A DNA stretch of 64,000 bases from Candidatus Gastranaerophilales bacterium (GTDB lineage: Bacteria; Cyanobacteriota; Vampirovibrionia; Gastranaerophilales; Gastranaerophilaceae). The DNA is taken from NCBI GenBank assembly GCA_944323995.1, contig CALUUN010000001.1, forward strand, positions 1 to 64,000, in the 5' to 3' direction. Of the stretch, positions 14,585-53,051 are shown in pieces. A program made the position numbers and the translations under genes. Every line of letters begins with the position of its first letter. The first letter of the stretch is position 1. The notes beneath the pieces were generated by a model. It saw only the letters and a list, made by a program, of their open reading frames with translations, did no database searches and had not been told where the DNA came from.

Positions 14585-14932
14585 TTAACATACCGAAGAA
14601 AATCCGCCGCATGAACCGCCTGAGCAGCTGCCTGCCGAAAAACCTCCGGATGAAAAACCGCCGCCAAAACTGCCGAGTGATGACACCGCGTTTGCAAAAT
14701 CGCTTAAAAATCCGCCCATGGCAATCGTGTCTGCGCCTTCGTATGCCGCATACATACTGTAATCAACCGCAAAAGGATTATTTGTTATAAATTCATCATA
14801 TTGACCCATTGTCATAAGACCGTCTTGAAATAACATTGCAAGCGATCCGGCTGTTTCAACAACTTCTGCGGGTTTTTGAGCTTCAGCAACGTATGTTCTT
14901 TCTGAATTTGACGGTTGTGATAATGTAATCAT
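14585..14932 (-). CDS. Small protein with Gly/Ser/Cys-rich tail
   Basis: The 115-residue product starts MITLSQPSNSERTYVAEAQ and has a helical middle (ETAGSLAMLFQDGLMTMGQYDEFI). Its tail is strikingly low in complexity, with GGGFSSGGFSAGSCSGGSCGG followed by FSSVC. Three cysteines sit in the last 20 residues. There is no signal peptide. The start is supported by GAGGAG 6 nt before ATG 14932; an upstream in-frame start at 14992 lies beyond the promoter. It carries the shared TAAC box/ACTTTATATA promoter found at four other genes here. Function is unknown: a structural, secreted or metal-binding tail are all possible. Confidence 0.7.
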   Translation of the reverse strand: MITLSQPSNSERTYVAEAQKPAEVVETAGSLAMLFQDGLMTMGQYDEFITNNPFAVDYSMYAAYEGADTIAMGGFLSDFANAVSSLGSFGGGFSSGGFSAGSCSGGSCGGFSSVC

Positions 14933-14954: not shown

Positions 14955-15018
14955 TATATATAAAGTTTCCTGATTAATCCCGATTTCAGCATGTGTTCTT
15001 TTTGTTACATTCGTTAAC
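14955..15018 (-). promoter_or_regulatory. Shared-type promoter: TAAC direct repeat plus ACTTTATATATA
   Basis: On the minus strand GTTAACGAATGTAACAAAAA (14999-15018) holds TAACGAA and TAACAAA 9 bp apart. ACTTTATATATA (14955-14966) begins 52 bp further on, just before the ribosome site. The same layout occurs before the genes at 23405, 29568, 50774 and 51696. Confidence 0.55.
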
Positions 15019-15121
15019 AAAAAAATCCCGTACCCCTGATTTAGCTCAAAATAAACCTAAAGATTGATGTTATATACACGGTGCCCCATTATCATGATAA
15101 TTGTAAAAGAAGGGGATAGTT

Positions 15122-23180: not shown

Positions 23181-23312
23181 ATAAGATAGTGAATAAGTGA
23201 ATAAGGTAATAAGGGAATAAGTGTTATATAAAAATTGATATTGAATAATTCCGCTCAGATTAATAACTGATACAACTTATTCACCTATTCACTTATTTAC
23301 TTATTCCCTTAT
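23181..23312. repeat. Palindromic intergenic repeat, copy 1
   Basis: The ends are inverted: GTAATAAGGGAATAAGTGTT on the left and AACTTATTCACCTATTCACT, then TATTTACTTATTCCCTTAT on the right. A central GCTCAGATTAA is shared with copies at 24018 and 53949. All three are in the same orientation. No coding potential; it resembles a MITE- or REP-like element. Confidence 0.75.
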
Positions 23313-23376
23313 ATTAACTTTTGTAACAAAACACCTCAAAAACAGCAATATTGCATGATATATATACTTTATATAA
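23313..23376 (+). promoter_or_regulatory. Shared-type promoter upstream of the coiled-coil protein
   Basis: ATTAACTTTTGTAACAAAAC begins at 23313, directly after repeat copy 1. ACTTTATATAATTAA begins at 23366, 53 bp on. This is the same two-box layout as before 14932, 29568, 50774 and 51696. Confidence 0.5.
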
Positions 23377-23404: not shown

Positions 23405-24013
23405 ATGGGTTTCTTATTAGGCGCATACGGAAAATTAATGGCCGGCAAGCGAGTTCGACAACTCCAGGCCCGTATGATGAGCGTTCAATCTCAATTGAGA
23501 CGCGCCACTCGTGATATTGAAAATATGGAACGTCAGATTAATGCACAGCAACGACAAATGACAAACACCATACGTACAATGGGTTCTATGCAAATGTTCG
23601 GTTTGCAGTCATATAATCAAACAGAATTAGCAAACTTGCAGGCTTCAATTTTTGATAAACACGGCTTGACAGGTATTAAATTTGATGACATGACTGATGA
23701 GCAGAAAAAATCTTACTCTAATGCAATTTCTGAATATCAAATGAATGCAGCTTTAGTTAACAACCAGATGAGTTCAATGCAGCAAATGATGCAAACAACA
23801 ATGATGCAGCAGCAGCAACAGGTTGAAAACTATGTTGAAATGATGAAAGAAATGCAGCTTGAACCTCTGAAAGATCTTGAAGAAGATCTGCAGATGGAAA
23901 AAGAATCACTTGAATCACAAATTCAGTTAGCACAACAGGATTACGAGGCTTGCAAAGAAATGGAAAAATCAGGCTCTAAATCCTTAGCTCCGCAATACAC
24001 AGGTCAAGGGTAA
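23405..24013 (+). CDS. Met/Gln-rich coiled-coil protein, function unknown
   Basis: The 202-residue protein starts MGFLLGAYGKLMAGKRVRQL and is almost wholly helical. It contains a coiled coil (about 20-60), a Met/Gln-rich stretch including MMQTTMMQQQQQVENYVEMM (about 130-150), and an acidic helix (EDLQMEKESLESQIQLAQQD). There are no signal peptide and no transmembrane helix. From memory, proteins with this N-terminus recur in gut Melainabacteria, and I do not know a function. A secreted filament or scaffold is one possibility. The gene is flanked by two same-direction copies of the palindromic repeat and has the shared TAAC-box promoter. Confidence 0.75.
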   Translation: MGFLLGAYGKLMAGKRVRQLQARMMSVQSQLRRATRDIENMERQINAQQRQMTNTIRTMGSMQMFGLQSYNQTELANLQASIFDKHGLTGIKFDDMTDEQKKSYSNAISEYQMNAALVNNQMSSMQQMMQTTMMQQQQQVENYVEMMKEMQLEPLKDLEEDLQMEKESLESQIQLAQQDYEACKEMEKSGSKSLAPQYTGQG

Positions 24014-29298: not shown

Positions 29299-29568
29299 CT
29301 ATGCAAGAATGTTCAGTTTCTTAGCGTTAAAACCTCCGTTGCTTTCAAAATTAATACTGCCCTGCGGATCGAACTGTTCAACGTCAAATCCTTTGTCAGC
29401 CTTTTCCGTCTTTTTGTTTTGAACCTTATTTATTCCGGAAACGGCAATAAAGTTGTTAAATTCCGAATAACTTATTACTCCGTCGCCGTCCTTATCGTAT
29501 TTGTCAAACGTCAACTGATCCATAGAACCGAGTGATGCTCTTGTCATACCCTGTGTAATTGCTAACAT
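29299..29568 (-). CDS. Small EF-hand protein
   Basis: The 89-residue protein contains one canonical EF-hand loop, DKDGDGVISYSE (Asp/Asp/Asp and Glu at the calcium positions), flanked by helices LTFDKY and FNNFIAVS. It starts MLAITQGMTRASLGSMDQL and ends in a polar tail. There is no signal peptide. GAGAGGAG lies before the ATG. It carries the shared TAAC-box/ACTTTATATA promoter, so it is probably co-regulated with the low-complexity proteins at 14585, 23405, 50774 and 51696. Calcium binding is expected from the motif; the role is unknown. Confidence 0.8.
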   Translation of the reverse strand: MLAITQGMTRASLGSMDQLTFDKYDKDGDGVISYSEFNNFIAVSGINKVQNKKTEKADKGFDVEQFDPQGSINFESNGGFNAKKLNILA

Positions 29569-29584: not shown

Positions 29585-29650
29585 TATTTATATAAAGTAA
29601 TTTAAAATAACGCATATTCAGAAAGGCGTTTTTTTGTTACATTTGTTAAT
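29585..29650 (-). promoter_or_regulatory. Shared-type promoter upstream of the EF-hand gene
   Basis: On the minus strand ATTAACAAATGTAACAAAAA (29631-29650) contains the perfect direct repeat TAACAAA with a 9-bp period. ACTTTATATAAATA (29585-29598) begins 52 bp later, identical spacing to the promoter at 14955-15018. Confidence 0.55.
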
Positions 29651-29732
29651 ACTGTAAAAAAATATTAAGAAATCGGCAAAAATTTTTTTTTAGAGCTATT
29701 ATAAGTAATGCATCTAAAGAAAAGGAGTAATT

Positions 29733-30158
29733 ATGCAGGTAAACAGAATCAGTTATCAGCCTAATTTTCAGGCTCGATTTATTAAAAGTCCTACACTAAT
29801 GGAAACTACAAAATTGGAAATTTTAAATTCAGAAGACGGCGGTGACAAATGGGTTACCGAACTCGGCAGATTAAGCAGACACCACAAAGACGCCGAACTT
29901 TTGATGGAATACATTCCGGAATGCAAAAAAGGCAACGTACCTTATCCGCCGACATATATTATATCTAATTTAACAACCGGAAAAACAATCAGCAAAGAAA
30001 ACGAACCTTTCAATGCACGTGATCTTGCAGTTTTAAATAATCCGAGAAGCGACGCTTACCAGCAGCTTTTTTACAAACCGGATATTAACGAAACTCTGAA
30101 GAACATTTCAGACAAATATTACGACAAACACGATACTTTTTATCCTTCTTCCAAGTAA
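29733..30158 (+). CDS. Hypothetical protein with N-terminal NF motif
   Basis: The 141-residue protein begins MQVNRISYQPNFQARF, similar in style to MKVARISNTYRQNF (8841-9590) and MQIRNDVNFTGIY (32509). The rest is a mixed soluble sequence with no recognised motif (TYIISNLTTGKTISKENEPF). There are no signal peptide and no membrane segment. AAAGGAG precedes the ATG with good spacing, so it is very likely expressed. Its 3' end overlaps the convergent sugar permease by 19 bp. Function unknown. Confidence 0.7.
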   Translation: MQVNRISYQPNFQARFIKSPTLMETTKLEILNSEDGGDKWVTELGRLSRHHKDAELLMEYIPECKKGNVPYPPTYIISNLTTGKTISKENEPFNARDLAVLNNPRSDAYQQLFYKPDINETLKNISDKYYDKHDTFYPSSK

Positions 30159-31021
30159 ACGACTTTTTTGCGCAGTTTCCACTGGAATAGGGTAAGGATA
30201 AGTATTATAACGAATAAAACGTAGGCAATGGCTGAAGCTTTGCCTACGTTAAAGTATTCAAACGCATTTTTATAAATAGAATACACAAGCACGTTTGTGC
30301 TGTCCAAAGGCCCGCCCTGCGTCATTAAATATATCAGGTCAAAAATCTGAAACGAACTTATTGCGGTAATAATCACGACAAAAAATATGGAAGGCGACAA
30401 CAGCGGTACCGTAACATTTTTGAAGGTCTGGAACGCGTTTGCGCCGTCAATTTTTGCAGCTTCAAACATATTCTGATTAATCGCACTTAATGAGGATAAA
30501 AAAATAATCATGTTGTATCCGATTAATTTCCATACCGAAACAATTATCAGTGCCGGCATAGCAAAATTAGTGTCATAGAGCCAGTTGATGTGAAGATGTA
30601 AAAAATTGTTCAAAATCCCTATATTAGGGTCAAAAATCCACTGCCAGACAACCCCTATAACAACCATAGGGGTGATAAACGGCAGGAAATAAGCTGTTTT
30701 GTAGAATTCAGAACCTCTTATTTTGCTATTTAAAATAACCGCAAGAACAAGCGGTATTATAACTCCGAAAACAGAAGTTGATACAGCAAAAACAACCGTA
30801 TTCAAGAGAATTTTATAAAAAAGCGCCTCGGAAAATATATTTTTGTAATTTTCAAGTCCGGCAAATGTAAGGGGATTTACAAGATCCCAATGTACAAAAC
30901 TAAGACCGAATGAACATATAACCGGAATTATAATAAATACAAAAGTTCCGGCAAGCGCCGGCAAAATAAAGAGCCAGCCGGCAAAAGAACTGTCATTAAA
31001 AAATGCATGACTTAACTTCAT
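30140..31021 (-). CDS. ABC sugar transporter permease (MalF/UgpA type)
   Basis: A 293-residue inner-membrane permease with six transmembrane segments. The first is FAGWLFILPALAGTFVFIII, and the ATPase-coupling EAA loop reads EAAKIDGANAFQTFKNVTVP. This is the CUT1 class for oligosaccharides or glycerol phosphate. The partner permease, binding protein and ATPase are not adjacent, so it is an orphan gene here. I use ATG 31021 (MKLSHAFF); an upstream in-frame start at 31069 would lie inside the divergent gene. TATAAT ends 6 nt before the ATG and no ribosome site exists, so it is probably leaderless. Confidence 0.88.
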   Translation of the reverse strand: MKLSHAFFNDSSFAGWLFILPALAGTFVFIIIPVICSFGLSFVHWDLVNPLTFAGLENYKNIFSEALFYKILLNTVVFAVSTSVFGVIIPLVLAVILNSKIRGSEFYKTAYFLPFITPMVVIGVVWQWIFDPNIGILNNFLHLHINWLYDTNFAMPALIIVSVWKLIGYNMIIFLSSLSAINQNMFEAAKIDGANAFQTFKNVTVPLLSPSIFFVVIITAISSFQIFDLIYLMTQGGPLDSTNVLVYSIYKNAFEYFNVGKASAIAYVLFVIILILTLFQWKLRKKVVYLEEG

Positions 31022-31035
31022 GATATAATTATACA
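31022..31035. promoter_or_regulatory. Palindromic bidirectional -10 element TATAATTATA
   Basis: TATAATTATA (31024-31033) is a perfect palindrome giving a TATAAT -10 on each strand. On the minus strand it ends 6 nt before the permease ATG. On the plus strand it lies upstream of GGGAGAGG and the phosphomannomutase ATG at 31052. Confidence 0.6.
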
Positions 31036-31051
31036 ATGAGGGAGAGGAATT

Positions 31052-32476
31052 ATGCAAAAGTACGAACATGCTTTCGGTAAAAATGATATAAGAGGAATTT
31101 ACAATCAGGATATAACAGAGGAATTATATTATAATATAGGAATCGGTTTTGTAGAGTGGTTAAAGAAAAAATCCGGCAAGTCCGATATGACACTAACTGT
31201 CTGCCGCGATGCAAGACTGCATTCACCGTCGCTTGCGGATGCATTAATATCGGGACTAACAAATGCCGGAGCAAAAGTTATTGATTTGGGACTTGCGCCG
31301 ACTCCTATCGGATATTATTCAGAAGTTACAATGCCGGAAGTTATTTCAGCAATGATTATTACGGCAAGTCACAACCCGTCCGAATACAACGGGCTCAAGA
31401 TGACATACCAACATCAAACCCTCAATGAGGCCCGGATAAAAGAGGTTAAAGAACTTACTTTTGCAAACTGGACATCAGACTTAAAACCTGTACGCAAATC
31501 TCTTGTCAAAGATTACGACATAATTCCTGTTTATATTGAAGATATGAAAAAACGGTTCAAAGATACTGGCAAAGGCTTAAAAATTGTTGTAGACAGCGCA
31601 AATGCAACAGGCGGACTTGTCGGGCCGAAACTTTACAGAGAACTGGGATGTGAGGTTGTTGAACTCTACTCCGAACCTGACGGAAGATTTCCGAACCATC
31701 ACCCGAATCCGAGTGATTTAAAAACACTGAAAGATATTGAAAAGTCTGTTGTTGAAAATAAAGCCGATGTCGGAATAGCTTATGACGGCGACAGCGACAG
31801 AATAGGGGTTATTGATACGGAAGGAAAACCGCTTACGGGTGATAAATTATTATTAATTTATGCACTTGATTTGATTTCAGAGTGTGACATAAAACCTGCC
31901 GTAGTGTCCGAAGTTAAATGCTCGCAGGTATTATTCGATACAATTAATAATACGGGCGCAAAAGCGATTATGTGCAAAACCGGCCACGGATATATTAAGG
32001 AAAAAATGAAAGAAACCGGCGCAATTCTGGCGGGTGAAATGAGCGGCCATACGTTTTTTAAAGACAGATACTTCGGCTTTGACGACGCGATTTATGCAGG
32101 CTGCAGGATTATTGAAATTATTGCAAAAAATAAAAAAATTAATCCGGCATTTAAAATTCAGGATTTGCTGGAACCCTTTAATGCGGTGTACACCTCGGAT
32201 GAAGTGCGCTTTCCCTGCCCGAATGAGATGAAAAAGCAGACAATGGAAACTTTGAAAGATTATGTTAACAAACATCCTGATATGTTTGGCTGCGAAATTA
32301 AAGACATTGTAACATTAGACGGAATGCGGATAGTGTTTGACGGCGGTTTTGCGCTCATTAGGCAGAGTAATACCGAGCCGGTTTTCACGCTTAGATTTGA
32401 AGCTAAAACAAAAGAACAGTGCGAACATATTCAAAACTGCATGATTGAAAAATTAAAAAATATTTTAAACAAATAG
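31052..32476 (+). CDS. manB: Phosphomannomutase/phosphoglucomutase
   Basis: A 474-residue alpha-D-phosphohexomutase. The phosphoserine loop is ITASHNPSEYNGLK, the metal loop DGDSDRIG, the sugar-specificity loop GEMSGHTFF and the phosphate-binding loop RQSNTEP. It interconverts hexose 6- and 1-phosphates, supplying sugar nucleotides for the envelope glycans suggested by neighbouring genes. GGGAGAGG lies before the ATG. It diverges from the ABC permease over a 30-bp promoter region. Confidence 0.93.
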   Translation: MQKYEHAFGKNDIRGIYNQDITEELYYNIGIGFVEWLKKKSGKSDMTLTVCRDARLHSPSLADALISGLTNAGAKVIDLGLAPTPIGYYSEVTMPEVISAMIITASHNPSEYNGLKMTYQHQTLNEARIKEVKELTFANWTSDLKPVRKSLVKDYDIIPVYIEDMKKRFKDTGKGLKIVVDSANATGGLVGPKLYRELGCEVVELYSEPDGRFPNHHPNPSDLKTLKDIEKSVVENKADVGIAYDGDSDRIGVIDTEGKPLTGDKLLLIYALDLISECDIKPAVVSEVKCSQVLFDTINNTGAKAIMCKTGHGYIKEKMKETGAILAGEMSGHTFFKDRYFGFDDAIYAGCRIIEIIAKNKKINPAFKIQDLLEPFNAVYTSDEVRFPCPNEMKKQTMETLKDYVNKHPDMFGCEIKDIVTLDGMRIVFDGGFALIRQSNTEPVFTLRFEAKTKEQCEHIQNCMIEKLKNILNK

Positions 32477-32508
32477 CAAAAAATATTTTTATAAGTTTTA
32501 ACTATAAC

Positions 32509-33054
32509 ATGCAAATCAGAAACGACGTGAATTTTACCGGAATATACAGACTTCCTCTTAATGAAAAAAACTTAAGAGAATTCAGGGAACATATTGTTCC
32601 TATGTACACATATATAAGACATGAGCCTTTAGTAACATTTCCGGGGAATAATCCCGCAAAATTTATAGGCGACATAATGTTCAAAAGGATAGCTGAACTT
32701 GCAGGCGGATCAACAGAATGGCTGAAAATGAACGCACAAAACCACAATCTTGATGTATCCGATATGACAAGCAGCGTTCTTCACGTAATATCGTCACGCA
32801 AAGATGTTGAGCGTTTTAACGAGTTTATAAAAAATACTGCCGCAAAGAAAATGTCATTCTTTGAAAAACTTAAAATTGCACTTAATCCTAATAAAAATAT
32901 CAGAGAAGATTTGCCGCTGCATTTAAAATTTGTACAGGCAACATTAAATAACATGAAAATGAGAGATAAAGAGTTTGCGGAATTTGCCGGAACAGATCTT
33001 GTGGAAGTAAAAACACCGCAGGAACTTTTAAAAAGGATGCTGACGGAAAAGTAA
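32509..33054 (+). CDS. Hypothetical protein with N-terminal NF motif
   Basis: The 181-residue protein starts MQIRNDVNFTGIYRLPLNEK. The remainder is soluble and helical, with ITSSVLHVISSRKDVERF-type stretches (about 83-105) and a basic region KKMSFFEKLKIALNPNKN. No family is recognised. It starts 33 bp after phosphomannomutase without a visible ribosome site, and its short NF-containing N-terminus resembles those at 8841-9590 and 29733. It converges with the XRE regulator with a 1-bp gap. Confidence 0.65.
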   Translation: MQIRNDVNFTGIYRLPLNEKNLREFREHIVPMYTYIRHEPLVTFPGNNPAKFIGDIMFKRIAELAGGSTEWLKMNAQNHNLDVSDMTSSVLHVISSRKDVERFNEFIKNTAAKKMSFFEKLKIALNPNKNIREDLPLHLKFVQATLNNMKMRDKEFAEFAGTDLVEVKTPQELLKRMLTEK

Positions 33055-33055
33055 A

Positions 33056-33280
33056 TCAGAATTTGAGGAGTTCAAAAGGCTCAACACCCAGCGCCTTTGC
33101 AATAAGCCTTATCCGTGAGAGAGGAATATCGTTTCTGGCATTTTCAATATTTGAAATATAAGAGTTATCCGTGCCTATCTCAAGGCTCAATTCTTCTTGC
33201 GTTAAACCGCGTTCAAGCCTCAAATACCGCAGATGCTGACCAAATTTTTTATGGAATACTTTACTAAATTTTTTCGCCAT
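33056..33280 (-). CDS. XRE-family helix-turn-helix regulator
   Basis: A 74-residue Cro/C1-type DNA-binding protein. The HTH is LTQEELSLEIGTDNSYISNI, followed by ENARNDIPLSRIRLIAKALG. There is no effector domain, so it is a minimal repressor- or activator-type protein. It is transcribed away from pilin-like gene A, whose start is 98 bp from its own start. The pair shares an intergenic region and it could regulate that gene; this is inference from position. Confidence 0.85.
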   Translation of the reverse strand: MAKKFSKVFHKKFGQHLRYLRLERGLTQEELSLEIGTDNSYISNIENARNDIPLSRIRLIAKALGVEPFELLKF

Positions 33281-33377
33281 ATATATAGATATATCAACAA
33301 ATTTTCATATTACTATGAGTATTTTTAAAGTTTATGGTATAATATACAATAGGCATGGGAATATATAGGAGTAAAAA

Positions 33378-34433
33378 ATGAAATTACAAACAAAAGAACG
33401 TAAGGCTTTTACACTTGCAGAAGTGCTAATAACTCTTGCGATTATAGGAATAGTCGCAGCACTGACAATCCCGACACTTGTACAGAATTATCAAACAAAA
33501 GCATGGAACACTGCATCACAGGTATTTCAGAGAAAACTCGGTGAAGCATTAAGGGTAATGAATGTTCAGGGAACCTTGGCAGGTTATACAACAACAGAAG
33601 CGTTTGTTGATGAATTGTCTAAACATATTAAAATAACAAGAATATGCAACAACGATGATATTACAACATGTTTTGCTGATAAAGTATACTGGGGTAAAGA
33701 AGGTGAAGAGCCGGAAGAAGTTGATATGTTCGAAATAAAAACATCGGAAAGTTTTGGCCAAAAGGACTGGGATACAAACACTGTAGCCGTACAATTTGCA
33801 AACGGTGTAAATGCCGTAATAGCGTATAACCCAGATTGTACTCAGAACCAATTTAGTAATCAGGTAACGGGAGAAAATTGTCTTGCTATATTATACGATG
33901 TAGACGGATTTAAGAATCCCAATACTGTATCAAAAGATTTAAGAAATAATAATAACGTATTAGCACTTGCCGGTGTAAAAAGCGGATTTTGTTTATCAGA
34001 CGGAACATGTTTCACCGCACCTTTTAAACCAACACCGTTAACGCGTGCAGAATGCATAGAAAGACAAGCAGAACTGGGCATAACATATTGTAGTGATTTA
34101 AACGATGATTTCTGGGGCGGCGCAGTAAAAGCATGCCATGATATGGGTTCAAGTTTACCGAGTCAGGAACAGCTAGATCAATTAGCAAGAGATTTGTATC
34201 CGGGTACGGAAATAAGCACAAGCAACGGAGTATCAGTTAGTGGTACAAGAGATAACGACCTTGCAGTATCAATGGGATTCATAACCTCACCCGATTCGTC
34301 GTTTTGGATTTGGTCCAGTGAGGAGGGCAGCAAGAACAACACGTACGGCCGCCACTTCTACTCCGCGAACACGCAACGGGTCTACGACCTCCGCAGCAAT
34401 AACTTCAGTCAGGTGGTGTGCTTAGCGGAATAA
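33378..34433 (+). CDS. Pilin-like protein A with DGR-type hypervariable C-terminus
   Basis: The 351-residue protein starts with a short basic leader and the type IV prepilin segment AFTLAEVLITLAIIGIVAAL (from residue 12), with Glu5 of the mature form and Ala, not Gly, before the cleavage site. A conserved middle (residues 30-150) is nearly identical to protein B at 61133. The C-terminal domain has the C-type-lectin-like layout WIWSSEE ... VVCLAE, and its last 40 codons are hypervariable. Such domains are the usual targets of diversity-generating retroelements and bind ligands. A TATAAT and GGAG ribosome site precede ATG 33378, and unlike B there is no poly-G tract. It diverges from the XRE gene. 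Confidence 0.88.
   Translation: MKLQTKERKAFTLAEVLITLAIIGIVAALTIPTLVQNYQTKAWNTASQVFQRKLGEALRVMNVQGTLAGYTTTEAFVDELSKHIKITRICNNDDITTCFADKVYWGKEGEEPEEVDMFEIKTSESFGQKDWDTNTVAVQFANGVNAVIAYNPDCTQNQFSNQVTGENCLAILYDVDGFKNPNTVSKDLRNNNNVLALAGVKSGFCLSDGTCFTAPFKPTPLTRAECIERQAELGITYCSDLNDDFWGGAVKACHDMGSSLPSQEQLDQLARDLYPGTEISTSNGVSVSGTRDNDLAVSMGFITSPDSSFWIWSSEEGSKNNTYGRHFYSANTQRVYDLRSNNFSQVVCLAE
34311..34433 (+). repeat. Variable region (VR) of pilin-like gene A
   Basis: From TGGTCCAGTGAGGAG to GTGTGCTTAGCGGAATAA the region aligns without gaps to 62143-62265. Of 120 sense positions 31 differ, 29 in codon positions 1 or 2 and only 2 in position 3. The ends are identical (TGGTCCAGTGAGGAG and TGCTTAGCGGAAT). 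The GC-rich composition with NNC codons contrasts with the AT-rich gene body. This pattern matches adenine-directed DGR mutagenesis of AAC-type codons. Confidence 0.75.
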
Positions 34434-34568
34434 CATGTATACAGCAAAGCAGAAGAAGATATATTTAATAACCAATATTTGTGGAATTTCTACTTGTGCC
34501 GCTTTTTGTATGTCATTGAGAGGTGCAAGAGGCACGACATCATATTGGACATTGGTCAAATGCGTCCT

Positions 34569-34760
34569 GTCATTGCGAGGAGAATTTTCGGTAGGGCGCC
34601 GTGTGAGCGAAGCGAACCCGATAGGTGCCGGTCGGACATTACTCCGCCTGCACCCCGAATAATCCGATACGAGCAGAGCGACGTCGCAATCGCAAGGTTG
34701 GTAAAATTCAATGACAATGCGATTACTACGTCGAATGCTGCGCATTCTCCTCGTAATGAC
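34569..34760. repeat. 192-bp element with 16-bp inverted ends
   Basis: GTCATTGCGAGGAGAA (34569-34584) is the inverted copy, with one mismatch, of TTCTCCTCGTAATGAC (34745-34760). The interior is GC-richer and has internal palindromes (GCGACGTCGC, GCGAAGCGAA). It has no convincing gene and looks like a MITE/REP-type element. It fills the space between pilin-like gene A and the rpsE operon; open frames across it are artefacts of composition. Confidence 0.6.
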
Positions 34761-34840
34761 AAAATAAATATTTTTGCGAGAAGCGAAAGTAACGAAGTTA
34801 TCATCTTAACGACTTGGACTTAACAACACTAAAAATCCTC

Positions 34841-34869
34841 TTGCAATTTAATTTTGTCTGTGCTAAAGT
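34841..34869 (+). promoter_or_regulatory. Promoter of the rpsE-rpmD-rplO-secY operon
   Basis: TTGCAA (34841-34846), 17 bp, TAAAGT (34864-34869). This gives a leader of about 108 nt before rpsE. A promoter here is expected because the usual upstream spc-operon genes are missing. Confidence 0.4.
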
Positions 34870-34983
34870 TAAGAAGTCAGAAAAGTTACTCACGAATATT
34901 TTATCAATAGCTATCATATAGCTTGTTTTTGATGTATTCGAACCCTATAAAGAATTTACACTAAGAATGAAAGGTAAAAATCA

Positions 34984-35685
34984 ATGGATTTAGAAAACAA
35001 AGAAGAATTGAACATTGAATCAGCTGCAGACGCAAAAGAAACAACTGAAGTTGTTGAAGAAGCAAGCGCTGAAGAAACAGCTGAAAAAGCAGAAGAAGTT
35101 AAAGCCGAAGAACAGGTTGAACTTCAACCGGAAGAAGGCAAACCTTCAAAAAGAAGATCCCGCGGAAGCAAAAAACCGAAAATCGAAACTATTGAAGAAA
35201 AGCCGCAGAGTGAATGGACAGAACAGGTTGTTCAAATTAACCGCGTAACAAAAGTTGTTAAAGGCGGTAAAAAATTGAGCTTCCGTGCAATCGTTATTGT
35301 CGGAAACAAAAAAGGTCAGGTAGGTATTGGCTGTGCTAAAGCGGCAGAAGTTATTATTGCTATTCAAAAAGCTATCGCTGACGGCAGAAAAAATCTTATC
35401 ACAGTACCTATTTTCAAAACAACAATTCCGCACCCGATTTCAGGGAAATCAGGCGCAGGTGAAGTTATGTTAAGACCTGCTTCTCAAGGTACAGGTATTA
35501 TTGCAGGCGGAGCTGTTCGTCCGGTGCTTGAACTTGCAGGTATTGAAAACATCCTTGCAAAATCTTTAGGTTCAAAATCACCTTTGAACGCTGCTTATGC
35601 AACTATTAACGCTTTGAAAGCTCTCACACCGTTCCATGAAGTAGCTAAAAAACGCGGACTTACCATGGCGGAATTGTTAAATTAA
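34984..35685 (+). CDS. rpsE: 30S ribosomal protein S5 with acidic N-terminal extension
   Basis: The S5 body starts near residue 75 ([20 protein letters not shown]) and includes [20 protein letters not shown] and [15 protein letters not shown]. It sits at the mRNA entry side of the 30S subunit and helps decoding accuracy. The 233-residue length exceeds the usual 165-175 because of an N-terminal extension of about 65 residues rich in Glu/Ala, followed by a basic [14 protein letters not shown] patch. GAAAGG precedes the ATG. It heads rpsE-rpmD-rplO-secY; rplR and earlier spc genes are absent upstream. Confidence 0.95.
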
Positions 35686-35741
35686 TCGGTTATATAATTG
35701 ACTGACTGAGATATTATTATTAAATAAAAGGATATAAAATT

Positions 35742-35933
35742 ATGGCTAAAACAAAAACAAATACAGTAAAAATTAAACTCAAAAGAAGTTTAATCGGCGC
35801 ATCTGAAGCGCAGCGCAAAGTTGTTGCAGCACTCGGTCTTTCTAAAAAAGATCAGGTGGTGGAACACTCCGAAACTCCTTCCATTATGGGTATGGTGAAC
35901 AAAGTTTCACACCTTCTGGAAGTTACAAAATAG
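35742..35933 (+). CDS. rpmD: 50S ribosomal protein L30
   Basis: A 63-residue L30 with VKIKLKRSLIGASEAQRKVVAALGL and the conserved VVEHSETPSIMGMVNKV region, of normal length. It follows rpsE by 56 bp and has AAAGGAT upstream. This order (rpsE-rpmD-rplO-secY) is the conserved core of the spc operon. Confidence 0.95.
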   Translation: MAKTKTNTVKIKLKRSLIGASEAQRKVVAALGLSKKDQVVEHSETPSIMGMVNKVSHLLEVTK

Positions 35934-36004
35934 CACTGACCGCGTACAGTTACTAGGGTAACGACAGTGAATAGCGAGCGGCAAAATTTATGAGGAAAAT
36001 TAAA

Positions 36005-36454
36005 ATGACAAATATTAAATTAGAAGATTTAAGACCTGCAGAAGGTTCAACACACAAAACAAAACGCGTAGGCCGCGGAAGATCATCAGGTCGCGGTAAA
36101 ACTTCCTGCCGCGGTCATAACGGTGAAGGACAGCGTTCCGGAAGCAGCGCTAAAAGAGGTTTTGAAGGCGGCCAGATGCCGGCTTACAGAAGACTTCCGA
36201 AATTGAAAGGCTTCCAGATTATCAACAAATTACATTACGCCGAAATTAACGTCGGCAGAATTGCACAGTTAGGTGTGAAAGAAGTTTCTCTTGAGTCGCT
36301 TAAAGAAGCAAAAAGAGTACATCCTTCATGCGACGGTTTGAGAGTTCTCGGCAACGGCGAAATCAAAAAAGCCGTTACGGTTAAGGCTGCTTATGTTACA
36401 CCTTCAGCAAAAGAAAAAATTGAAGCCGCAGGCGGAAAGGTTGAGTTAGTATAA
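36005..36454 (+). CDS. rplO: 50S ribosomal protein L15
   Basis: A 149-residue L15 with the Gly/Arg-rich start TKRVGRGRSSGRGKTSCRGH, the GFEGGQMPAYRRLPKLKGF core and a C-terminal AKEKIEAAGGKVEL. It binds 23S rRNA late in 50S assembly. I use ATG 36005, preceded by GAGGA, rather than the in-frame ATG at 35990. Its stop overlaps the secY start (TAATG). Confidence 0.95.
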   Translation: MTNIKLEDLRPAEGSTHKTKRVGRGRSSGRGKTSCRGHNGEGQRSGSSAKRGFEGGQMPAYRRLPKLKGFQIINKLHYAEINVGRIAQLGVKEVSLESLKEAKRVHPSCDGLRVLGNGEIKKAVTVKAAYVTPSAKEKIEAAGGKVELV

Positions 36455-37791
36455 TGGCACAAGGTATTAAAATGCCTACAACTGAAGATTTGATGTCAAT
36501 GTGGCAGGCATCGGGTTTGAAACAAAAAATTATTTTTACATTCCTGATGATTGCCGCCTTCAGACTTGGTGTTCAAATGCCGTTATTCGGTATTAACAAT
36601 CAGGTATTTTCAAACATCGCTCAAGGAAATAATATTATCGGATTTTTGGATTTATTTTCCGGCGGTGCTCTGGGTACGGTATCAATATTTGCACTGGGTA
36701 TAGGACCTTTTATTACGGCATCAATTATTATTCAGCTTGTTTCTGTTGTAATTCCTTCACTGGAAAAATTACAAAAAGAAGAAGGCGAAGCGGGCAGAAG
36801 AAAACTATCACAGTATACAAGAATTTTCACGGTTGTCCTTGCAGTATTCCAGTCGTTAATATTTATGCTTTATCTGCACCATTTACCGGGTGCGGTATTG
36901 CCGAATGTTAATCCTGCGATGTTTTTTGTAAGTTCAATCGTTGTGTTAACGGCAGGTTCGGTGCTTGTTATGTGGCTTTCCGAACTTATTACCGAAAAAG
37001 GTATCGGTAACGGCGGTTCATTGATAATCTTTGTCGGTATATTGTCAGGTATTCCTGTATACGCTTCAAGAACGGCGCAAATGGTTGCCAACAGCACAGC
37101 GCTCCAACTCGGTTTAGCGGCATTGCTCGCTATTTTCTTTGCGGCAATGGTGTTTATCGTAATTATGCAGGAGGCTGTCAGAAAAGTTATTATCGTAAAC
37201 CCGAAAAGACAGGTCGGAAACAAAGTTTACGGCGGTATGAATTCTTTTATACCCTTCAAACTCAATCCGGGCGGCGTTATGCCGATTATCTTTGCGATTG
37301 CGATTTTGCTTTTCCCGTCAACCGTTTTGAGCCTCGTAGGTCAGGCAAACTTTAAGTCTGAGGCCGTAAAAAATGTGGTAATGTCGCTTAACCACTGGCT
37401 AAGTCCGGACGGCATCACATATTACGTCTTGTATTTTGCATTGATTGTTGCGTTAACTTTCTTCTACGCTTCAATTATGCCGAATATGCAGCCGAAAGAT
37501 ATTGCCGACAACCTTAAAAAATACGGTTCGTCAATTCCCGGCATAAAACCCGGCAAACCGACTGCCGAAGCACTCGATAAAATTCTGACAAAAACAACGT
37601 TTATCGGTGCTATGGGCTTAGGTATTATCGCGCTTGTACCGTCTTTGGCAAGTTATGTTACAAACATTAAAACTTTGCAAGGTATCGGTGCAACGTCATT
37701 AATCATTATGGTCGGTGTTGCTCTTGACTTGATTAATCAGGTAAGAACACACCTGCTGGCAAGAAATTACGAATCTTTCTTGAAAGAATAA
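36454..37791 (+). CDS. secY: Protein translocase subunit SecY
   Basis: A 445-residue ten-helix channel protein of the Sec translocon, with plug and helix-2 region FSGGALGTVSIFALGIGPFI, QLVSVVIPSLEKLQKEGE-like cytoplasmic loop and GGVMPIIFAIAILLFPST. It moves unfolded preproteins across or into the inner membrane together with SecA/SecE. It is translationally coupled to rplO and ends the operon at a strong terminator; adk, map and infA, its usual followers, are absent. Confidence 0.97.
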   Translation: MAQGIKMPTTEDLMSMWQASGLKQKIIFTFLMIAAFRLGVQMPLFGINNQVFSNIAQGNNIIGFLDLFSGGALGTVSIFALGIGPFITASIIIQLVSVVIPSLEKLQKEEGEAGRRKLSQYTRIFTVVLAVFQSLIFMLYLHHLPGAVLPNVNPAMFFVSSIVVLTAGSVLVMWLSELITEKGIGNGGSLIIFVGILSGIPVYASRTAQMVANSTALQLGLAALLAIFFAAMVFIVIMQEAVRKVIIVNPKRQVGNKVYGGMNSFIPFKLNPGGVMPIIFAIAILLFPSTVLSLVGQANFKSEAVKNVVMSLNHWLSPDGITYYVLYFALIVALTFFYASIMPNMQPKDIADNLKKYGSSIPGIKPGKPTAEALDKILTKTTFIGAMGLGIIALVPSLASYVTNIKTLQGIGATSLIIMVGVALDLINQVRTHLLARNYESFLKE

Positions 37792-37810
37792 GACTTTACG
37801 GTAATATTTT

Positions 37811-37844
37811 AAAAACAGCTCGATAAATCGGGCTGTTTTTTTGT
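37811..37844 (+). terminator. Terminator after secY
   Basis: AAACAGCTCGA pairs with TCGGGCTGTTT around TAAA (one bulge) and is followed by seven T. It lies 20 bp past the secY stop. Confidence 0.85.
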
Positions 37845-37935
37845 TTGTAATAATTAATAATTCCGGCAATGAATAAGATTAAAAATAGTTTATGATAAAT
37901 ATGTAAATCCTCAACTCTTCTGATTGCTCAGCTTT

Positions 37936-37962
37936 GCCTCTCTTTGGAGAGGCTTTTCTTTT
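37936..37962 (+). terminator. Second terminator-like hairpin in the secY-PilZ gap
   Basis: GCCTCTC TTTG GAGAGGC followed by TTTTCTTTT. As the secY transcript already has a terminator, this second one may end a short RNA starting in 37845-37930. I saw no convincing promoter for one. Confidence 0.7.
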
Positions 37963-38038
37963 GTAAACTTACTGACAAATTTTGAAAAATAGGTTATAAT
38001 AAATACAATATTAACAGCATGCTTGAAAGGATAAGAAT

Positions 38039-38629
38039 ATGAGAGAATTAATTTCTAAAGATCAAAGAATTATAATGGTACCGCACGATTTTAAATTCGC
38101 AAACAAAGGTATAATTACAGAAGTTGCGCCGGACTATTTCATGCTTGAACTTGATTACGAGCCGGACGGAATTTTAAGGAGCAATTACTGCGAATTCTAC
38201 ACCCAAACTCCGCACGGGACTTTGTACTTTGATTCTTATGCAAAAGAAATTAACGGAAAAACTCTCAAAATTGCCAGCCCGGCAAAACATAAATTTTTAC
38301 AAAGACGTCAATATACGCGTATCAAATATATTCTTGATCTTGATATGTTTGACGGCGATAATGCACTTAAAATTACCACTCTCGATATTTCAGCAGGCGG
38401 TATGAAATTAAAAACAAAAGATAATGTAAATATTGAAAAAGATTACACAATTACCCTTCCGCTCTCTGAAGAACAGAATATTAATTGTACGTTTTCGCCC
38501 ATTCGTATTGAAAAAAATAACGATGGTGGTTATACAGTATCCGGAAGATTTGAGTACAATTCAAGCCATGACAAAATGACACTTACTCAATACTGTGCAA
38601 AACGTAACATTGAAATTAAGAACAAATAA
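38039..38629 (+). CDS. PilZ-domain cyclic-di-GMP-binding protein
   Basis: The 196-residue protein has an N-terminal YcgR-like beta domain (about 1-85) and a PilZ domain. The c-di-GMP signature is complete: RRQYTR (about residue 90) and DISAGG (about residue 120). Such proteins adjust motility or surface secretion in response to c-di-GMP. TATAAT about 40 nt upstream and GAAAGGAT before the ATG form a normal leadered start. The PLP enzyme gene follows after 2 bp and is co-transcribed. Confidence 0.88.
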   Translation: MRELISKDQRIIMVPHDFKFANKGIITEVAPDYFMLELDYEPDGILRSNYCEFYTQTPHGTLYFDSYAKEINGKTLKIASPAKHKFLQRRQYTRIKYILDLDMFDGDNALKITTLDISAGGMKLKTKDNVNIEKDYTITLPLSEEQNINCTFSPIRIEKNNDGGYTVSGRFEYNSSHDKMTLTQYCAKRNIEIKNK

Positions 38630-38631
38630 TT

Positions 38632-39669
38632 ATGAGTCTTGTAAAACTTTTGAAGAAAAAAAATCATAAGATTCTTTTTACAACACCTTCACATTCACAA
38701 AAATCTTTTATATACAAACCGCTAAAATCTTTGTATAAAATTGATATTTCGGAAACAGACGCACATAACCCGCAGCAAGCCCTCCAAAAGGCTCAGGAGC
38801 GCGCCCGAAAAATATATAAGACTAATTCAACCCATTTTCTTACTAATGGCTCTACAAGCGGTATAATTGCCGCTGTATTAACTTGTACAAATGCTGGCGA
38901 AAAAGTTCTTATATGGCGCAACGCGCATCCGTGTCATTTGAATGCCGTGAGACTTGCCGGCGCAATTCCGGTATTTTATGACCTTGAGACAGATGAAGAA
39001 TGGGGAATCCCGACGGAAACTCCGCCCGAGGTAATTGAAAAATACATTAAAGCCTACGAAATTAAAACAGTTATTATTACATCTCCCACATACGAAGGTA
39101 TTGTATCAGATATAAGAAAAATCAAAAAAATTTGTGAAACCTATAACGCATACCTGATTGTTGATGAAGCACACGGCGCATTGTACCCTTTTTCTGACAG
39201 ACTGCCTGAAAGTGCCGTAAATATTGCGGATTTCACAATACAATCTTTGCACAAAACAGCAGGCGGTCTGAACCCGACAGCACTTTTACATTCATCATGT
39301 AATCTGAACCCTGAAAAAGCGCTTAACATGATTAATACAACATCGCCTTCATATCCGCTTTTAGCGTCAATTGAAGAAAATATAAATTATCTGAACAGCT
39401 GGTGGGGAAAAAGAAAGCTGGAGCAGCTTCTTGATGAACTTGAACTTCTGCGTGAAGAATGCCCCCACTGTGAATTTTTCGGGGACGATTTGACAAAAAT
39501 TCTTGTGAAAGTGCCTGAGCTTTCCGGTGAAGAACTTTCTGAAATTCTGTTCGACAACTACAACATTGAAGATGAAAAAACAAACGAAAAATCTACAATG
39601 CTTTTATGCGGAATCGGAACAGATAATAAAAAATTAAAAAAACTTAAAAACGCATTGTTAAATTTGTAA
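38632..39669 (+). CDS. Short Orn/Lys/Arg decarboxylase-like PLP protein
   Basis: This 345-residue protein matches the major domain of basic amino acid decarboxylases. It has TTPSHSQ at the start, THFLTNGSTSGI, NAHPCHLNAVRLAGA, IVDEAHGALYPF (PLP aspartate and histidine) and QSLHKTAGG (Schiff-base lysine). It lacks much of the C-terminal domain of full-length enzymes (about 480 residues), although the stop region looks natural. Polyamine formation from arginine or lysine is the probable theme, but activity of the short form is uncertain. It overlaps no gene and follows the PilZ gene directly. Confidence 0.82.
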   Translation: MSLVKLLKKKNHKILFTTPSHSQKSFIYKPLKSLYKIDISETDAHNPQQALQKAQERARKIYKTNSTHFLTNGSTSGIIAAVLTCTNAGEKVLIWRNAHPCHLNAVRLAGAIPVFYDLETDEEWGIPTETPPEVIEKYIKAYEIKTVIITSPTYEGIVSDIRKIKKICETYNAYLIVDEAHGALYPFSDRLPESAVNIADFTIQSLHKTAGGLNPTALLHSSCNLNPEKALNMINTTSPSYPLLASIEENINYLNSWWGKRKLEQLLDELELLREECPHCEFFGDDLTKILVKVPELSGEELSEILFDNYNIEDEKTNEKSTMLLCGIGTDNKKLKKLKNALLNL

Positions 39670-39697
39670 CAATTTGTTAATAAACAGCCTTAAATAT

Positions 39698-39725
39698 TAA
39701 AGTTTCTGACTATAAAAGCCGATAA
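39698..39725 (+). promoter_or_regulatory. Sigma-28 (FliA)-like promoter of the second MGMAASQAR gene
   Basis: TAAAGTTT (39698-39705) and GCCGATAA (39718-39725) are perfect copies of both FliA consensus boxes, separated by 12 bp (consensus 11; shifting the -35 one base gives 11). The transcript start would lie about 33 nt before the ATG at 39765, which has AGGAAAGGA upstream. Confidence 0.7.
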
Positions 39726-39764
39726 CCGTAGTAAGGATACAAACAGGAAAGGACAGACCCGGCT

Positions 39765-41783: not shown

Positions 41784-41809
41784 AAAACGGAGCTCAAACT
41801 CCGTTTTTT
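41782..41809. terminator. Terminator after the MGMAASQAR gene
   Basis: AAAAAACGGAG CTCAAA CTCCGTTTTTT is a perfect stem with flanking A and T tracts, directly overlapping the stop codon. Confidence 0.88.
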
Positions 41810-41908
41810 AATATCTTTATAACGATATAAAGATTATGTAAGGAAATCCGTATTGAAACAAATTTTGAATTATAATAATAACATAGGTTAGAAAAATTGG
41901 AGATTGAA

Positions 41909-42193
41909 ATGCAAACAGTAAATGAGATTCTTACAAAATTAGAAACAGCTGATAATTCAACTAAAAATGAATTGGAAAATATTCTTGTTAACTTCGGCAC
42001 ATCAGCAGTACCGCAGCTGGTAGATCAATTGCAGGTTGTACGCGGCATTAAACGCGGTGTTGTTGCCATGACTCTTATCAGAATCGGTAATGCTTCCGTT
42101 AAATATTTGAAAAAAGCAGCGGAAGACAACAAAGACTTTGAATGGGTTGCTGAATACCTTATCAGAGAAATTCAAGGTTCAAAAGCAGCATAA
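41909..42193 (+). CDS. Small HEAT-repeat-like protein
   Basis: A 94-residue helical protein with one to two HEAT-like repeats: FGTSAVPQLVDQLQVVRGIK and MTLIRIGNASVKYLKKAAED have the Pro/Leu spacing of the HEAT_2 family. Such small proteins act as protein-protein adaptors, and the partner is unknown. ATG 41909 with GGAGA upstream is preferred to the in-frame TTG at 41897. It stands alone between two terminators. Confidence 0.75.
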   Translation: MQTVNEILTKLETADNSTKNELENILVNFGTSAVPQLVDQLQVVRGIKRGVVAMTLIRIGNASVKYLKKAAEDNKDFEWVAEYLIREIQGSKAA

Positions 42194-50645: not shown

Positions 50646-50680
50646 TTTTCAGGGAATAATATAAGTACAACAGTATAATT

Positions 50681-50750
50681 GTTAAGAAATATTACACAGC
50701 AAAATTAAAATAAAGCAATTATATAATTAATATATACTTTATATATATAA
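50681..50750 (+). promoter_or_regulatory. Shared-type promoter upstream of low-complexity protein 1
   Basis: GTTAAGAAATATTACACAGC begins at 50681. ACTTTATATATATAA begins at 50736, 55 bp on. The upstream box is the weakest match of the five; the downstream box is perfect. Confidence 0.45.
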
Positions 50751-50773: not shown

Positions 50774-51601
50774 ATGGCGCTCAGAAATGTACACGTATTT
50801 CCACAAAGAACGCAAAGAGCTGCAGTATTTAACCGAACATACGTTGTTCAACAGCAACAGGCACCGAAAGCAAACAACTCTGCATTTTGGGGCGCAGGAC
50901 TTGCCGGACTTTTAATCGGCACACTTAACGGACTTGCGGAAAATCCGGACTTATTCAAAGGCGCAAGAAACGAATACGATTTACTTAACCAGATGCAGCA
51001 AAAAGAACCGCTTGAACCGACGGTACAAAATAATCCTGAAATTGAACCGGAAACTAAAACGAATCCGGAACCCGAAACAGACCCGGCAAAAGTTGATGAA
51101 AATAAAGATGACGGTCTTGGCGGGCAGGAACCATTGCCGGAATATTCAATTAAAGAAGATGCAAAAACAACAGAAACCGTAAAAACCATCAAATACGGCG
51201 GTCCCTGGCATTATGCACAATATTACACAGATGAAAACGGCAAACAATTGCAAATAGGCTCGGCAGAGTTCAGTGCAATTATGAACAGTCTTAAAACCGA
51301 AATGGGCGAAGTTGACGGCGACAGAAGCCTTAGAGTCTTACCAAAAGAAATAACCATCGGCGGCAAAACATACAGCTTAATGGGCGCAGCAGAACGTGAC
51401 GCTCTTGGACTTATCGGTGAAAAAGGCACAACAGATACAAGATACAGAGCAATCAGTAACGGAAGTACATATTCCGTATTTGAAACAAAAGACGGAAATA
51501 CTACACTCATTGGCTCTGATTTAACAAAAGAACAAGCCGAAACCTTAAAAGCATCAAAAGAAGCAGAAGCAGCTGCACTGGCTGCAAGCAATGATGAATA
51601 A
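50774..51601 (+). CDS. Low-complexity protein, paralogue of the next gene
   Basis: The 275-residue protein begins MALRNVHVFPQRTQRAAVFN and contains FNRTYVVQQQQAP, a small hydrophobic patch (FWGAGLAGLLIGTLNGLAEN), then a Pro/Glu/Asp-rich linker with PETDPAKVDENKDDG. A C-terminal folded region (about 130-275) includes GGPWHYAQYYTDENG. The FNRT-VQQ and FWG-G patches and the TDPAKV linker recur in the protein at 51696, so they are tandem paralogues. There is no signal peptide. GGGAG precedes the ATG. Function unknown; shared promoter type suggests the same regulon as 14585, 23405 and 29299. Confidence 0.75.
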   Translation: MALRNVHVFPQRTQRAAVFNRTYVVQQQQAPKANNSAFWGAGLAGLLIGTLNGLAENPDLFKGARNEYDLLNQMQQKEPLEPTVQNNPEIEPETKTNPEPETDPAKVDENKDDGLGGQEPLPEYSIKEDAKTTETVKTIKYGGPWHYAQYYTDENGKQLQIGSAEFSAIMNSLKTEMGEVDGDRSLRVLPKEITIGGKTYSLMGAAERDALGLIGEKGTTDTRYRAISNGSTYSVFETKDGNTTLIGSDLTKEQAETLKASKEAEAAALAASNDE

Positions 51602-51603
51602 AT

Positions 51604-51671
51604 GTAAACAAATGTAAAAAATAAGTTATTCCCTGACAATTAAATACTCAATATATACTTTATATATATAA
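51604..51671 (+). promoter_or_regulatory. Shared-type promoter upstream of low-complexity protein 2
   Basis: GTAAACAAATGTAAAAAATA begins at 51604, right after the preceding stop codon. ACTTTATATATATAA begins at 51657, 53 bp on. ATGTAAA is directly repeated with a 10-bp period. Confidence 0.5.
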
Positions 51672-51695: not shown

Positions 51696-53051
51696 ATGGT
51701 ACACGGATTGTACAGACCCTGGATGAGAAGCCCGGGACCTACATTTTTTAACAGAACAGTTATAGTGCAGCAGCCGCACTGCCATCATTCAGGCGGAAGC
51801 GGTTTTTGGGGCGGATTTTTAGGCGGTCTGTTTGGCGGAGCAATGTTCGGCCGAGGCGGACTGTTTAGCGGACTGTTTGGTTTTGGCGGAATGCAGACTG
51901 GCATGCCTTTAATGGGCGGTTATATGGGAATGCCTATGATGGGCGGCTATTCAAATCCGTATGCTTTTTTGAACAATAACGGCAACTCACCGGCTGGCAT
52001 GACAACGCAAACAAACCCTGATTTACAGATTCTTGAAAAACACTTTGGTGATAAATATACAATAAGTGAACGTAACGGACAGTTTATCGCAACTGCAAAA
52101 GACGGCAAGGGTGAACCTATTGTTGCTGACAACTTCAATGACATGCTTCACGCACTCGGCGGAGATCCTGAAATAAGCGACAAAGCCAAAAGAGAAGCCG
52201 ATGCTTTAGCAGCCGAACGACTTGAAGCGGAACGCGGCAATGAGGGCGAAGACAATGACCCGACAATTGGTGACGGAAACGACCCTGCAACACGAACAGA
52301 CGGCAAACATACTGACGTAACTACCGAAGGCGATACAGACCCGCAGACAGACCCTGCAAAAGTCACTCCGGAAGATAAAGGCGCCGGAGAAACAGGCAGC
52401 GCTGATTTCCGTTCAAAATGGACAAGAACAGATGCAGCTGAATATAAAGAAATGTCAACAGCAGATGAAGTCATGAACGCATATTTGCGCAAAATGGGTA
52501 TAAATCCGGGCACAGACACTGCAGAATTGAAAAAACTGCTGATTGCAAATAACAAAAGCGTTTTTGATGAAAACGGAAACGTAAAAGCAGATGCTGATTG
52601 GTCAAAACTTGATTTACCGAATATGGATTATCTGACCACACTCGGCTTTGAAGAACAAAAATGGCAGGTATATGAATCACCGGGCTGGTTCAGCGGCGAC
52701 ACATATATGAAAGGTGCCAACGGAACAATATACAAACTTGTCTGTGATGACGGCGCTTACTTAAACTTCAGCAAATTAAAAATTGAAGACGGCGCAATCA
52801 CAACAGATTACGAAAGACATCCGATTGAAAAAATCAGAAACCATGCAACCGGCCAAACAATTCCGGCAAGACGCGACGAGGACGGAAGAATTCGAGTACA
52901 GATAAATGACGAGCAGGAAATTTATCTTGAAACCTTCCTCAACAATCCGGAAAAATATTTAAAAACAGAAACTAAAAAAAATGATCCGCCGGCAGTGCAA
53001 CCGGACATCCAACCTAAAGCAATCTCAGGCGGCTGGAGCGGAATAATATAA
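51696..53051 (+). CDS. Gly-rich low-complexity protein, paralogue of the previous gene
   Basis: The 451-residue protein starts MVHGLYRPWMRSPGPTFFN, with FFNRTVIVQQPHCHH followed by a Gly/Phe/Met-rich segment (about 30-90, e.g. GFWGGFLGGLFGGAMFGRGG). A degradable-looking region follows with LEKHFGDKYTISERNGQFIA, an acidic linker (about 165-235, DPQTDPAKVTPEDKG), and a C-terminal domain ending SGGWSGII. It has no Sec signal and no catalytic motif. It shares short blocks with the 50774 protein. A structural or secreted surface role is a guess from composition. GAGAGG precedes the ATG; a terminator follows. Confidence 0.75.
   Translation: MVHGLYRPWMRSPGPTFFNRTVIVQQPHCHHSGGSGFWGGFLGGLFGGAMFGRGGLFSGLFGFGGMQTGMPLMGGYMGMPMMGGYSNPYAFLNNNGNSPAGMTTQTNPDLQILEKHFGDKYTISERNGQFIATAKDGKGEPIVADNFNDMLHALGGDPEISDKAKREADALAAERLEAERGNEGEDNDPTIGDGNDPATRTDGKHTDVTTEGDTDPQTDPAKVTPEDKGAGETGSADFRSKWTRTDAAEYKEMSTADEVMNAYLRKMGINPGTDTAELKKLLIANNKSVFDENGNVKADADWSKLDLPNMDYLTTLGFEEQKWQVYESPGWFSGDTYMKGANGTIYKLVCDDGAYLNFSKLKIEDGAITTDYERHPIEKIRNHATGQTIPARRDEDGRIRVQINDEQEIYLETFLNNPEKYLKTETKKNDPPAVQPDIQPKAISGGWSGII

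Follow-up and report, generated by a model that had tools for sequence, protein, structure and literature searches.

RpaB and its binding site HLR1 form the light and redox regulatory switch of cyanobacteria. Here we analyzed a stretch of 64,000 nt (38.6% GC, referred to below as the window) from the 1.75-Mb genome of a Candidatus Gastranaerophilales bacterium, in which five genes share a promoter with an HLR1-like upstream box. We found that about thirty genes per genome stand behind this one promoter and that it defines a real regulon across the order Gastranaerophilales, which is well supported. We propose, with a probability of roughly 0.6, that RpaB switches on a regulon, with about 28 promoters in this genome, whose products serve a non-flagellar type III exporter as substrates or accessory proteins.

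HLR1 has been described as an 18-mer, KTTACAWW-N2-KTTACAWW, that serves as the RpaB site (PMC13421787; the consensus also in PMC11633204), and it acts as an activating site when it lies between -66 and -45 relative to the start of transcription (PMC13421787). Melainabacteria were reported to retain homologues of RpaA and RpaB together with NblS (PMC3787301, PMC4040986; rpaA/rpaB in PMC5877343), and the lineage is reported to be without photosynthesis (PMC3787301), unlike the cyanobacteria in which RpaB is known. The accessible parts of these three papers give no RpaB targets in Melainabacteria, and no paper apparently describing the regulon was found in the searched literature on Gastranaerophilales, Melainabacteria and Vampirovibrionia, which took in few subscription journals.

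Anatomy and distribution of the promoter

A first-pass annotation of the window had described five genes behind two shared boxes, a TAAC-type box (box 1) and a box at ACTTTATATA (box 2). All five promoters were located where it had placed them, and ACTTTATATA has exactly five matches in the window, one at each (Table 1). The reported spacings of 52, 53, 52, 55 and 53 bp were reproduced when counted from the base preceding TTAAC. The pattern TTAAC-N3-TGTAACAAAA was exact at sites 1-3, carried three mismatches at site 5 and was weak at site 4 (GTTAAGAAATATTAC), and the gap between the box end and ACTT was 33-34 nt at sites 1, 2, 3 and 5. In place of two boxes, we found three elements. In particular, when the genome's 27 exact copies of ACTTTATATA were divided by eye into 18 promoter-like sites and a contrast set of nine, alignment of the 18 on ACTTTATATA revealed an overlooked G(C/A)AATT spanning -21 to -16 (with G in 16 of the 18 sites and A at -19 in every one), a 17-nt spacer between it and TTTATA, and a purine-rich leader. 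Since GCAATT-N17-TTTATA has the geometry of a -35/-10 pair, the TAAC box lies upstream of the -35 element, in the region where activators bind.

Taken singly, each box occurred in the window at close to chance frequency: ACTTTATATA with at most one mismatch was seen 12 times against 8.6 expected, and the TAAC box with at most three mismatches 13 times against 8.0. A -35/-10 weight matrix of 45 columns, whose 21 training sites include the window's five, returned five window matches at a score of at least 14 (0.0 per dinucleotide shuffle) and five at 12 or above (0.3 per shuffle). As an independent check, the same matrix was applied to 80 loci of related genomes outside the training set, where it found 36 matches at a score of at least 14, compared with three in one shuffle. 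Each box by itself is near chance, their combination is well beyond it, and the five window sites are confirmed as real.

The regulon consensus, GCAATT/ACTTTATATA, was unlike the sigma-28 (FliA) promoter, which has TAAA at -35 and GCCGATAA at -10. The genome carries eight genes with sigma-70 region 2, including FliA/WhiG-type and SigB/F/G-like members, despite having no flagellin. The flagellin promoters of two flagellated relatives (L221, L222; L and C numbers are our locus and contig handles) showed no clear sigma-28 box, and a sigma-70 promoter scan of window positions 30001-50000 was near chance (71 seen, 61.6 expected).

From 21 promoters (the 18 and three found through the TAAC box) we derived a sequence-only profile, R1, and with it scored 150 of 2635 first-look candidates in the genome. 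At least 28 sites reached 26 bits or more, namely the 21 training sites and seven new ones. An open reading frame (ORF) of at least 55 aa started within 60 nt of 26 of the 28, as compared with 31% of random window positions. Together with a Shine-Dalgarno-like sequence just downstream, such an ORF followed 24 of the 28 but 4.9% of random positions, so that the genome-wide scan proposed at the outset as a check found the sites to be unevenly spread. The five genes are thus a sample of about 28. Four of these sites fall on one 36-kb contig, C12 (L107), with promoters at 5637, 10538, 16578 and 19188.

The promoter was also conserved across the order. Our genome's FlhA shows up to 99% identity to metagenome-assembled genomes named Candidatus Gastranaerophilales, in keeping with its placement there. 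R1 matches at E-values up to 0.001 were present in all 58 order genomes examined, our own included, with 7-41 in each genome of family f1 and 2-15 in those of other families; one class outgroup gave no match. In an even draw across the class, all 19 f1 genomes (our own and 18 others) had 27-41 matches, whereas 50 of the 58 class genomes outside the order had none and eight had 1-4; the E-values are rough, and the contrast is large. Within the family, the median promoter count was 20.5 in flagellin-bearing genomes (n = 8) and 30 in the others (n = 28; p = 0.013, or p = 0.052 without our own genus), a difference not used as evidence given this weakening and because the profile was trained on our own genome. 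Among 30 loci compared, proteins similar to the window's 202-aa product recurred behind the promoter in L197 and L209, and proteins similar to the product of L073 did so in several other genomes.

The upstream box and RpaB

The upstream box of the first-pass annotation reads better as HLR1, with half-sites spaced by 10 bp, than as the proposed 9-bp repeat of TAACAAA. The window contains four HLR1 matches with at most one mismatch against 0.51 expected, a number that none of 100 shuffles reached; two of these matches belong to the regulon. Three of the 18 promoter-like sites matched HLR1 at 16/16 specified positions, and another two at 15/16. In the usual orientation, nine of the 18 were significant against mononucleotide shuffles (p<0.05), in contrast to none of the nine other ACTTTATATA sites. 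In the relatives' loci, HLR1 was scored in both orientations, as one orientation alone underrated the matches. Of the 36 hits obtained there with the -35/-10 matrix alone, ten had an HLR1 of at least 15 (0.02 expected) and seven a perfect one (0.00 expected). Most were placed at -44 in the forward or at -56 in the reverse orientation, counted from box 2; some of these boxes are common to closely related genomes, and not all are independent. Relative to the predicted start, HLR1 would span about -69 to -52 in the reverse orientation and -58 to -41 in the forward one. Boxes of the LytTR, NtcA and PhoB types were weighed on general grounds, with no search aimed at them, and were dropped, as their spacing or sequence did not fit.

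The genome encodes three OmpR-family regulators. One of them (L218:491-1240(-)) scored 362 bits against the NF045944 equivalog model for RpaB, above its cut-off of 330, and covered model positions 1-229 of 229; the other two fell below the cut-off with 209 and 212 bits. Control of the regulon by RpaB is likely and fairly supported. The earlier suggestion of an activator or alternative sigma factor was borne out in form, as a -35/-10 pair of unusual consensus with a box at activator distance, and RpaB is now the candidate activator.

Regulon products and a putative flagellum-like exporter

Among the products with recognizable domains are an EF-hand protein, an SLT transglycosylase with a weak EF-hand, a YkuD transpeptidase, a protein with a weak CHAP match and an HD-domain protein; further products belong to no Pfam family, and one of 62 aa we take to be ribbon-helix-helix-like. 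As the annotation had noted for its five, the regulon products are mostly small or of low complexity. By a crude rule, none of the 28 had a Sec-like N-terminus, compared with seven of 53 window ORFs, and the YkuD, SLT and weak CHAP products lacked a signal peptide. The first 30 residues were richer in S/T/N/Q than those of window ORFs (medians 0.27 and 0.20, p = 1e-4). These N-terminal features fit type III export of the products without proving it, and the products may form the secreted or surface set that had been suggested. As a separate observation, four proteins, which we presume to be pseudopilin-like (L104:68-1150(+), L104:12739-13830(+), L106:14498-15571(-) and L107:16768-17829(-)), have near-identical N-terminal segments around FTLAEVLITL and differing tails.

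Two of the 28 sites had no ORF and instead had intrinsic terminators downstream, which makes them candidate small RNA genes. One, at L074:1320-1519(-) with its promoter at C1:98004-98083, and its relatives in L203, L212 and L213 would yield an ORF-less RNA of roughly 90-160 nt. They contain UUCCU/CCUUCC stretches followed by an intrinsic terminator, and L208 carries a similar sequence in a locus that ends ahead of any terminator; no Rfam family matched the candidate at the gathering threshold. The other site, at L097:507-706(-) with its promoter at C17:690-774, has no long ORF, a reading frame of about 11 codons and a T run about 130 nt on.

No flagellin (PF00669) was found in our genome, while 29 of the 59 genomes searched, our own included in the search, have one. 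Nevertheless, the genome has two FlhA-type genes and, on contig C4, an operon of fliE, fliF, a gene for a 333-aa protein, fliH and flhA. The 333-aa protein (L104:8626-9627(+)) is encoded between fliF and fliH, where FliG would normally be expected, and has no FliG match in Pfam or NCBIfam. A stand-alone FlhA C-terminal domain was observed within a 492-aa protein (L106:8819-10297(-), C7:44851-45864), and most genomes of the order have one. Against the flagellar and injectisome models, the operon's FlhA scored 698 bits (TIGR01398 cut-off 772.1) and 581 as SctV (TIGR01399, 692.25), and its FliF 109.3 (TIGR00206, 129.75) and 51.7 as SctJ (TIGR02544, 161.95), all below the cut-offs; FliE exceeded its own (58.5 bits, TIGR00205 cut-off 30).

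Apart from the stand-alone domain, two classes of FlhA were distinguished in the order. Of the 58 genomes, 26 carry the class scoring 859-891 bits, and each of these has flagellin, whereas class B (668-733 bits) was present in 54 of 58, including all 29 without flagellin; the four genomes lacking it are drafts that are 75-88% complete. FlhA fragments persist in some flagellin-less genomes. Because class B occurs in every flagellin-less genome, it is not simply the remnant of a decaying flagellum, and it looks like a separate, conserved exporter.

A perfect HLR1, GTTACAAAGATTTACAAT, was found at C4:3503 in a promoter preceding a pair of ORFs of 90 and 108 aa, which lie a few genes ahead of the fliE-flhA operon, and related genomes had similar promoters at the corresponding place near the exporter operon. 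In a set of about 35 proteins, the profile of the 108-aa family matched a nearby 419-aa ORF and the regulon products L073 (1.4e-7) and L094 (2.5e-6). AlphaFold predicts a confident helical hairpin for the 108-aa protein; its closest folds in the PDB, none of them significant, included type III translocator and YscO coiled coils along with many unrelated ones. Its sequence gave no match at 0.001 or below, the best (0.015) being an unrelated coiled coil. Gene neighborhood and family similarity together indicate that the regulon is probably tied to the non-flagellar type III exporter, a link we regard as moderately supported.

Table 1. Promoter elements and genes at the five window sites
Site	Feature	Position	Strand	Remark
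1	HLR1-like box TTTGTTAACGAATGTAAC	15004..15021	-	15/16 specified positions
1	-35-like GAAATC	14982..14987	-	alignment on ACTTTATATA
1	ACTTTATATA, -10 region	14957..14966	-	exact match
1	gene, 115 aa, Gly/Cys-rich tail, no Pfam family	14585..14932	-	
2	HLR1-like box TATATTAACTTTTGTAAC	23310..23327	+	14/16
2	-35-like GCAATA	23345..23350	+	alignment on ACTTTATATA
2	ACTTTATATA	23366..23375	+	exact match
2	gene, 202 aa, Met/Gln coiled coil	23405..24013	+	
3	HLR1-like box AGTATTAACAAATGTAAC	29636..29653	-	13/16, alone not significant
3	-35-like GAATAT	29614..29619	-	alignment on ACTTTATATA
3	ACTTTATATA	29589..29598	-	exact match
3	gene, 89 aa, EF-hand (PF13202, 2.5e-07)	29299..29568	-	
4	weak HLR1-like box ATTGTTAAGAAATATTAC	50678..50695	+	13/16, alone not significant
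4	-35-like GCAATT	50715..50720	+	alignment on ACTTTATATA
4	ACTTTATATA	50736..50745	+	exact match
4	gene, 275 aa, Glu/Pro-rich, paralogue of site 5 product	50774..51601	+	
5	box AATGTAAACAAATGTAAA, overlaps stop of site 4 gene	51601..51618	+	16/16 HLR1 read on - strand
5	-35-like around GACAATT, one base out of register	51634..51641	+	alignment on ACTTTATATA
5	ACTTTATATA	51657..51666	+	exact match
5	gene, 451 aa, Gly-rich, no Pfam family	51696..53051	+	

The paralogy of the site 4 and site 5 products was evident at E 3.5e-7 in the set of about 35 proteins, and a scan of genome contigs with the site 5 protein returned no relative. A 646-aa protein with CHASE2 and adenylate/guanylate cyclase domains is encoded near these paired sites (window 46326-48266(+)).

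Weighing the readings against known systems

In the mechanism that we favor, each promoter has a -35-like GCAATT (or GAAAT), a 17-nt spacer, TTTATATA as the -10 element and a putative, HLR1-like RpaB site further upstream. Once phosphorylated, RpaB would bind the HLR1-like site and turn transcription on, in the manner known from HLR1 copies upstream of cyanobacterial promoters. The non-flagellar type III exporter would have the products as its substrates and accessory proteins. These comprise helical or low-complexity proteins without Sec signals, a few of which carry peptidoglycan-acting domains, as well as members of a paralogous family that is also found beside the divergent flagellar-type export operon.

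Several observations weigh against this proposal. HLR1 reached 15 or more at only five of the 18 promoter-like sites, and nine were not significant in the usual orientation; since TTAAC variants that miss significance are common among the sites, the box may belong to a different regulator of this family or be an RpaB site that has diverged. Counted from an inferred start, HLR1 in the reverse orientation would be displaced upstream by a few bases relative to the interval of -66 to -45 in cyanobacteria. RpaB orthologues were reported in all three Melainabacteria orders studied (PMC4040986), and because the promoter is nearly absent outside this order, RpaB alone does not explain its distribution. 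On the exporter side, the C4 promoter reached only 18.4 bits with R1, the 108-aa family resembled the window's 202-aa protein weakly (0.0079, with biased composition), and the predicted structure of the 108-aa protein had no PDB match at E 0.001 or below (best 0.019). The link between exporter and regulon is one of genomic association.

That the boxes merely resemble one another by chance in AT-rich intergenic DNA is very improbable: taken one at a time, the boxes are about as frequent in the window as expected, but the joint model against shuffles, the placement of ORFs and order-wide conservation with near absence outside contradict it. We consider it unlikely that an alternative sigma factor reads GCAATT-N17-TTTATA while a regulator other than RpaB, whether of the OmpR family or unrelated, binds the upstream box. 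Such a sigma factor would account for a -35/-10 pair more uniform than the upstream box (though the sites were chosen by exact ACTTTATATA), for the retention of FliA/WhiG-type and SigB/F/G-like genes, among the eight with sigma-70 region 2, in a genome without flagellin, and for the half of the boxes with no significant HLR1 match; against it stand perfect HLR1 copies at fixed positions, far over expectation at loci chosen without that box, and the single regulator that passes the RpaB model. It also seems rather unlikely, if a little less so, that the regulon is real and RpaB-controlled while its products belong to the envelope or the cytoplasm and have no connection with the flagellar-type exporter. 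Some products do look cytoplasmic, such as the HD-domain protein and the presumed ribbon-helix-helix-like one, and the exporter link consists of gene neighborhood and partly weak family similarity. Yet a perfect-HLR1 promoter adjoins the exporter operon, with similar placement in several related genomes, and peptidoglycan-acting domains occur without Sec signals.

A broader reading can be put forward tentatively, as possible but short of probable: RpaB/HLR1, in a non-photosynthetic sister order, may run a large regulon, including a conserved small RNA, for a third kind of flagellar-type exporter that is neither a flagellum nor a known injectisome and is kept where flagellin was lost. If this is true, control of cell-surface export, and not of light responses, could be an old role of RpaB. 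The finding suggests, in testable form, which genes RpaB may control and what the remaining export apparatus may do. In addition, the DNA pattern unites about 30 genes per genome, featureless in other respects, into one functional set in a gut order represented here by metagenome assemblies.

Compared with the cyanobacterial NblS-RpaB regulon, the system has an NF045944 orthologue and, at a subset of its sites, a match to the HLR1 18-mer upstream of the -35 element near the activating distance. It differs in that the targets are unannotated, exported-looking proteins and not photosystem or high-light genes, in its strong -35/-10 consensus and in the many sites that diverge from HLR1. As in flagellar regulons and export, homologues of fliE, fliF, fliH and flhA adjoin a regulon promoter; unlike flagellar systems, there is no flagellin here, flhA is of the 668-733-bit class and the promoter is unlike the sigma-28 consensus. 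No needle or translocator was identified here and neither the FlhA nor the FliF homologue reaches its injectisome cut-off (SctV and SctJ, respectively), unlike an injectisome, with which the system nevertheless shares an exporter without flagellin and the co-regulation of small helical proteins with peptidoglycan-acting enzymes.
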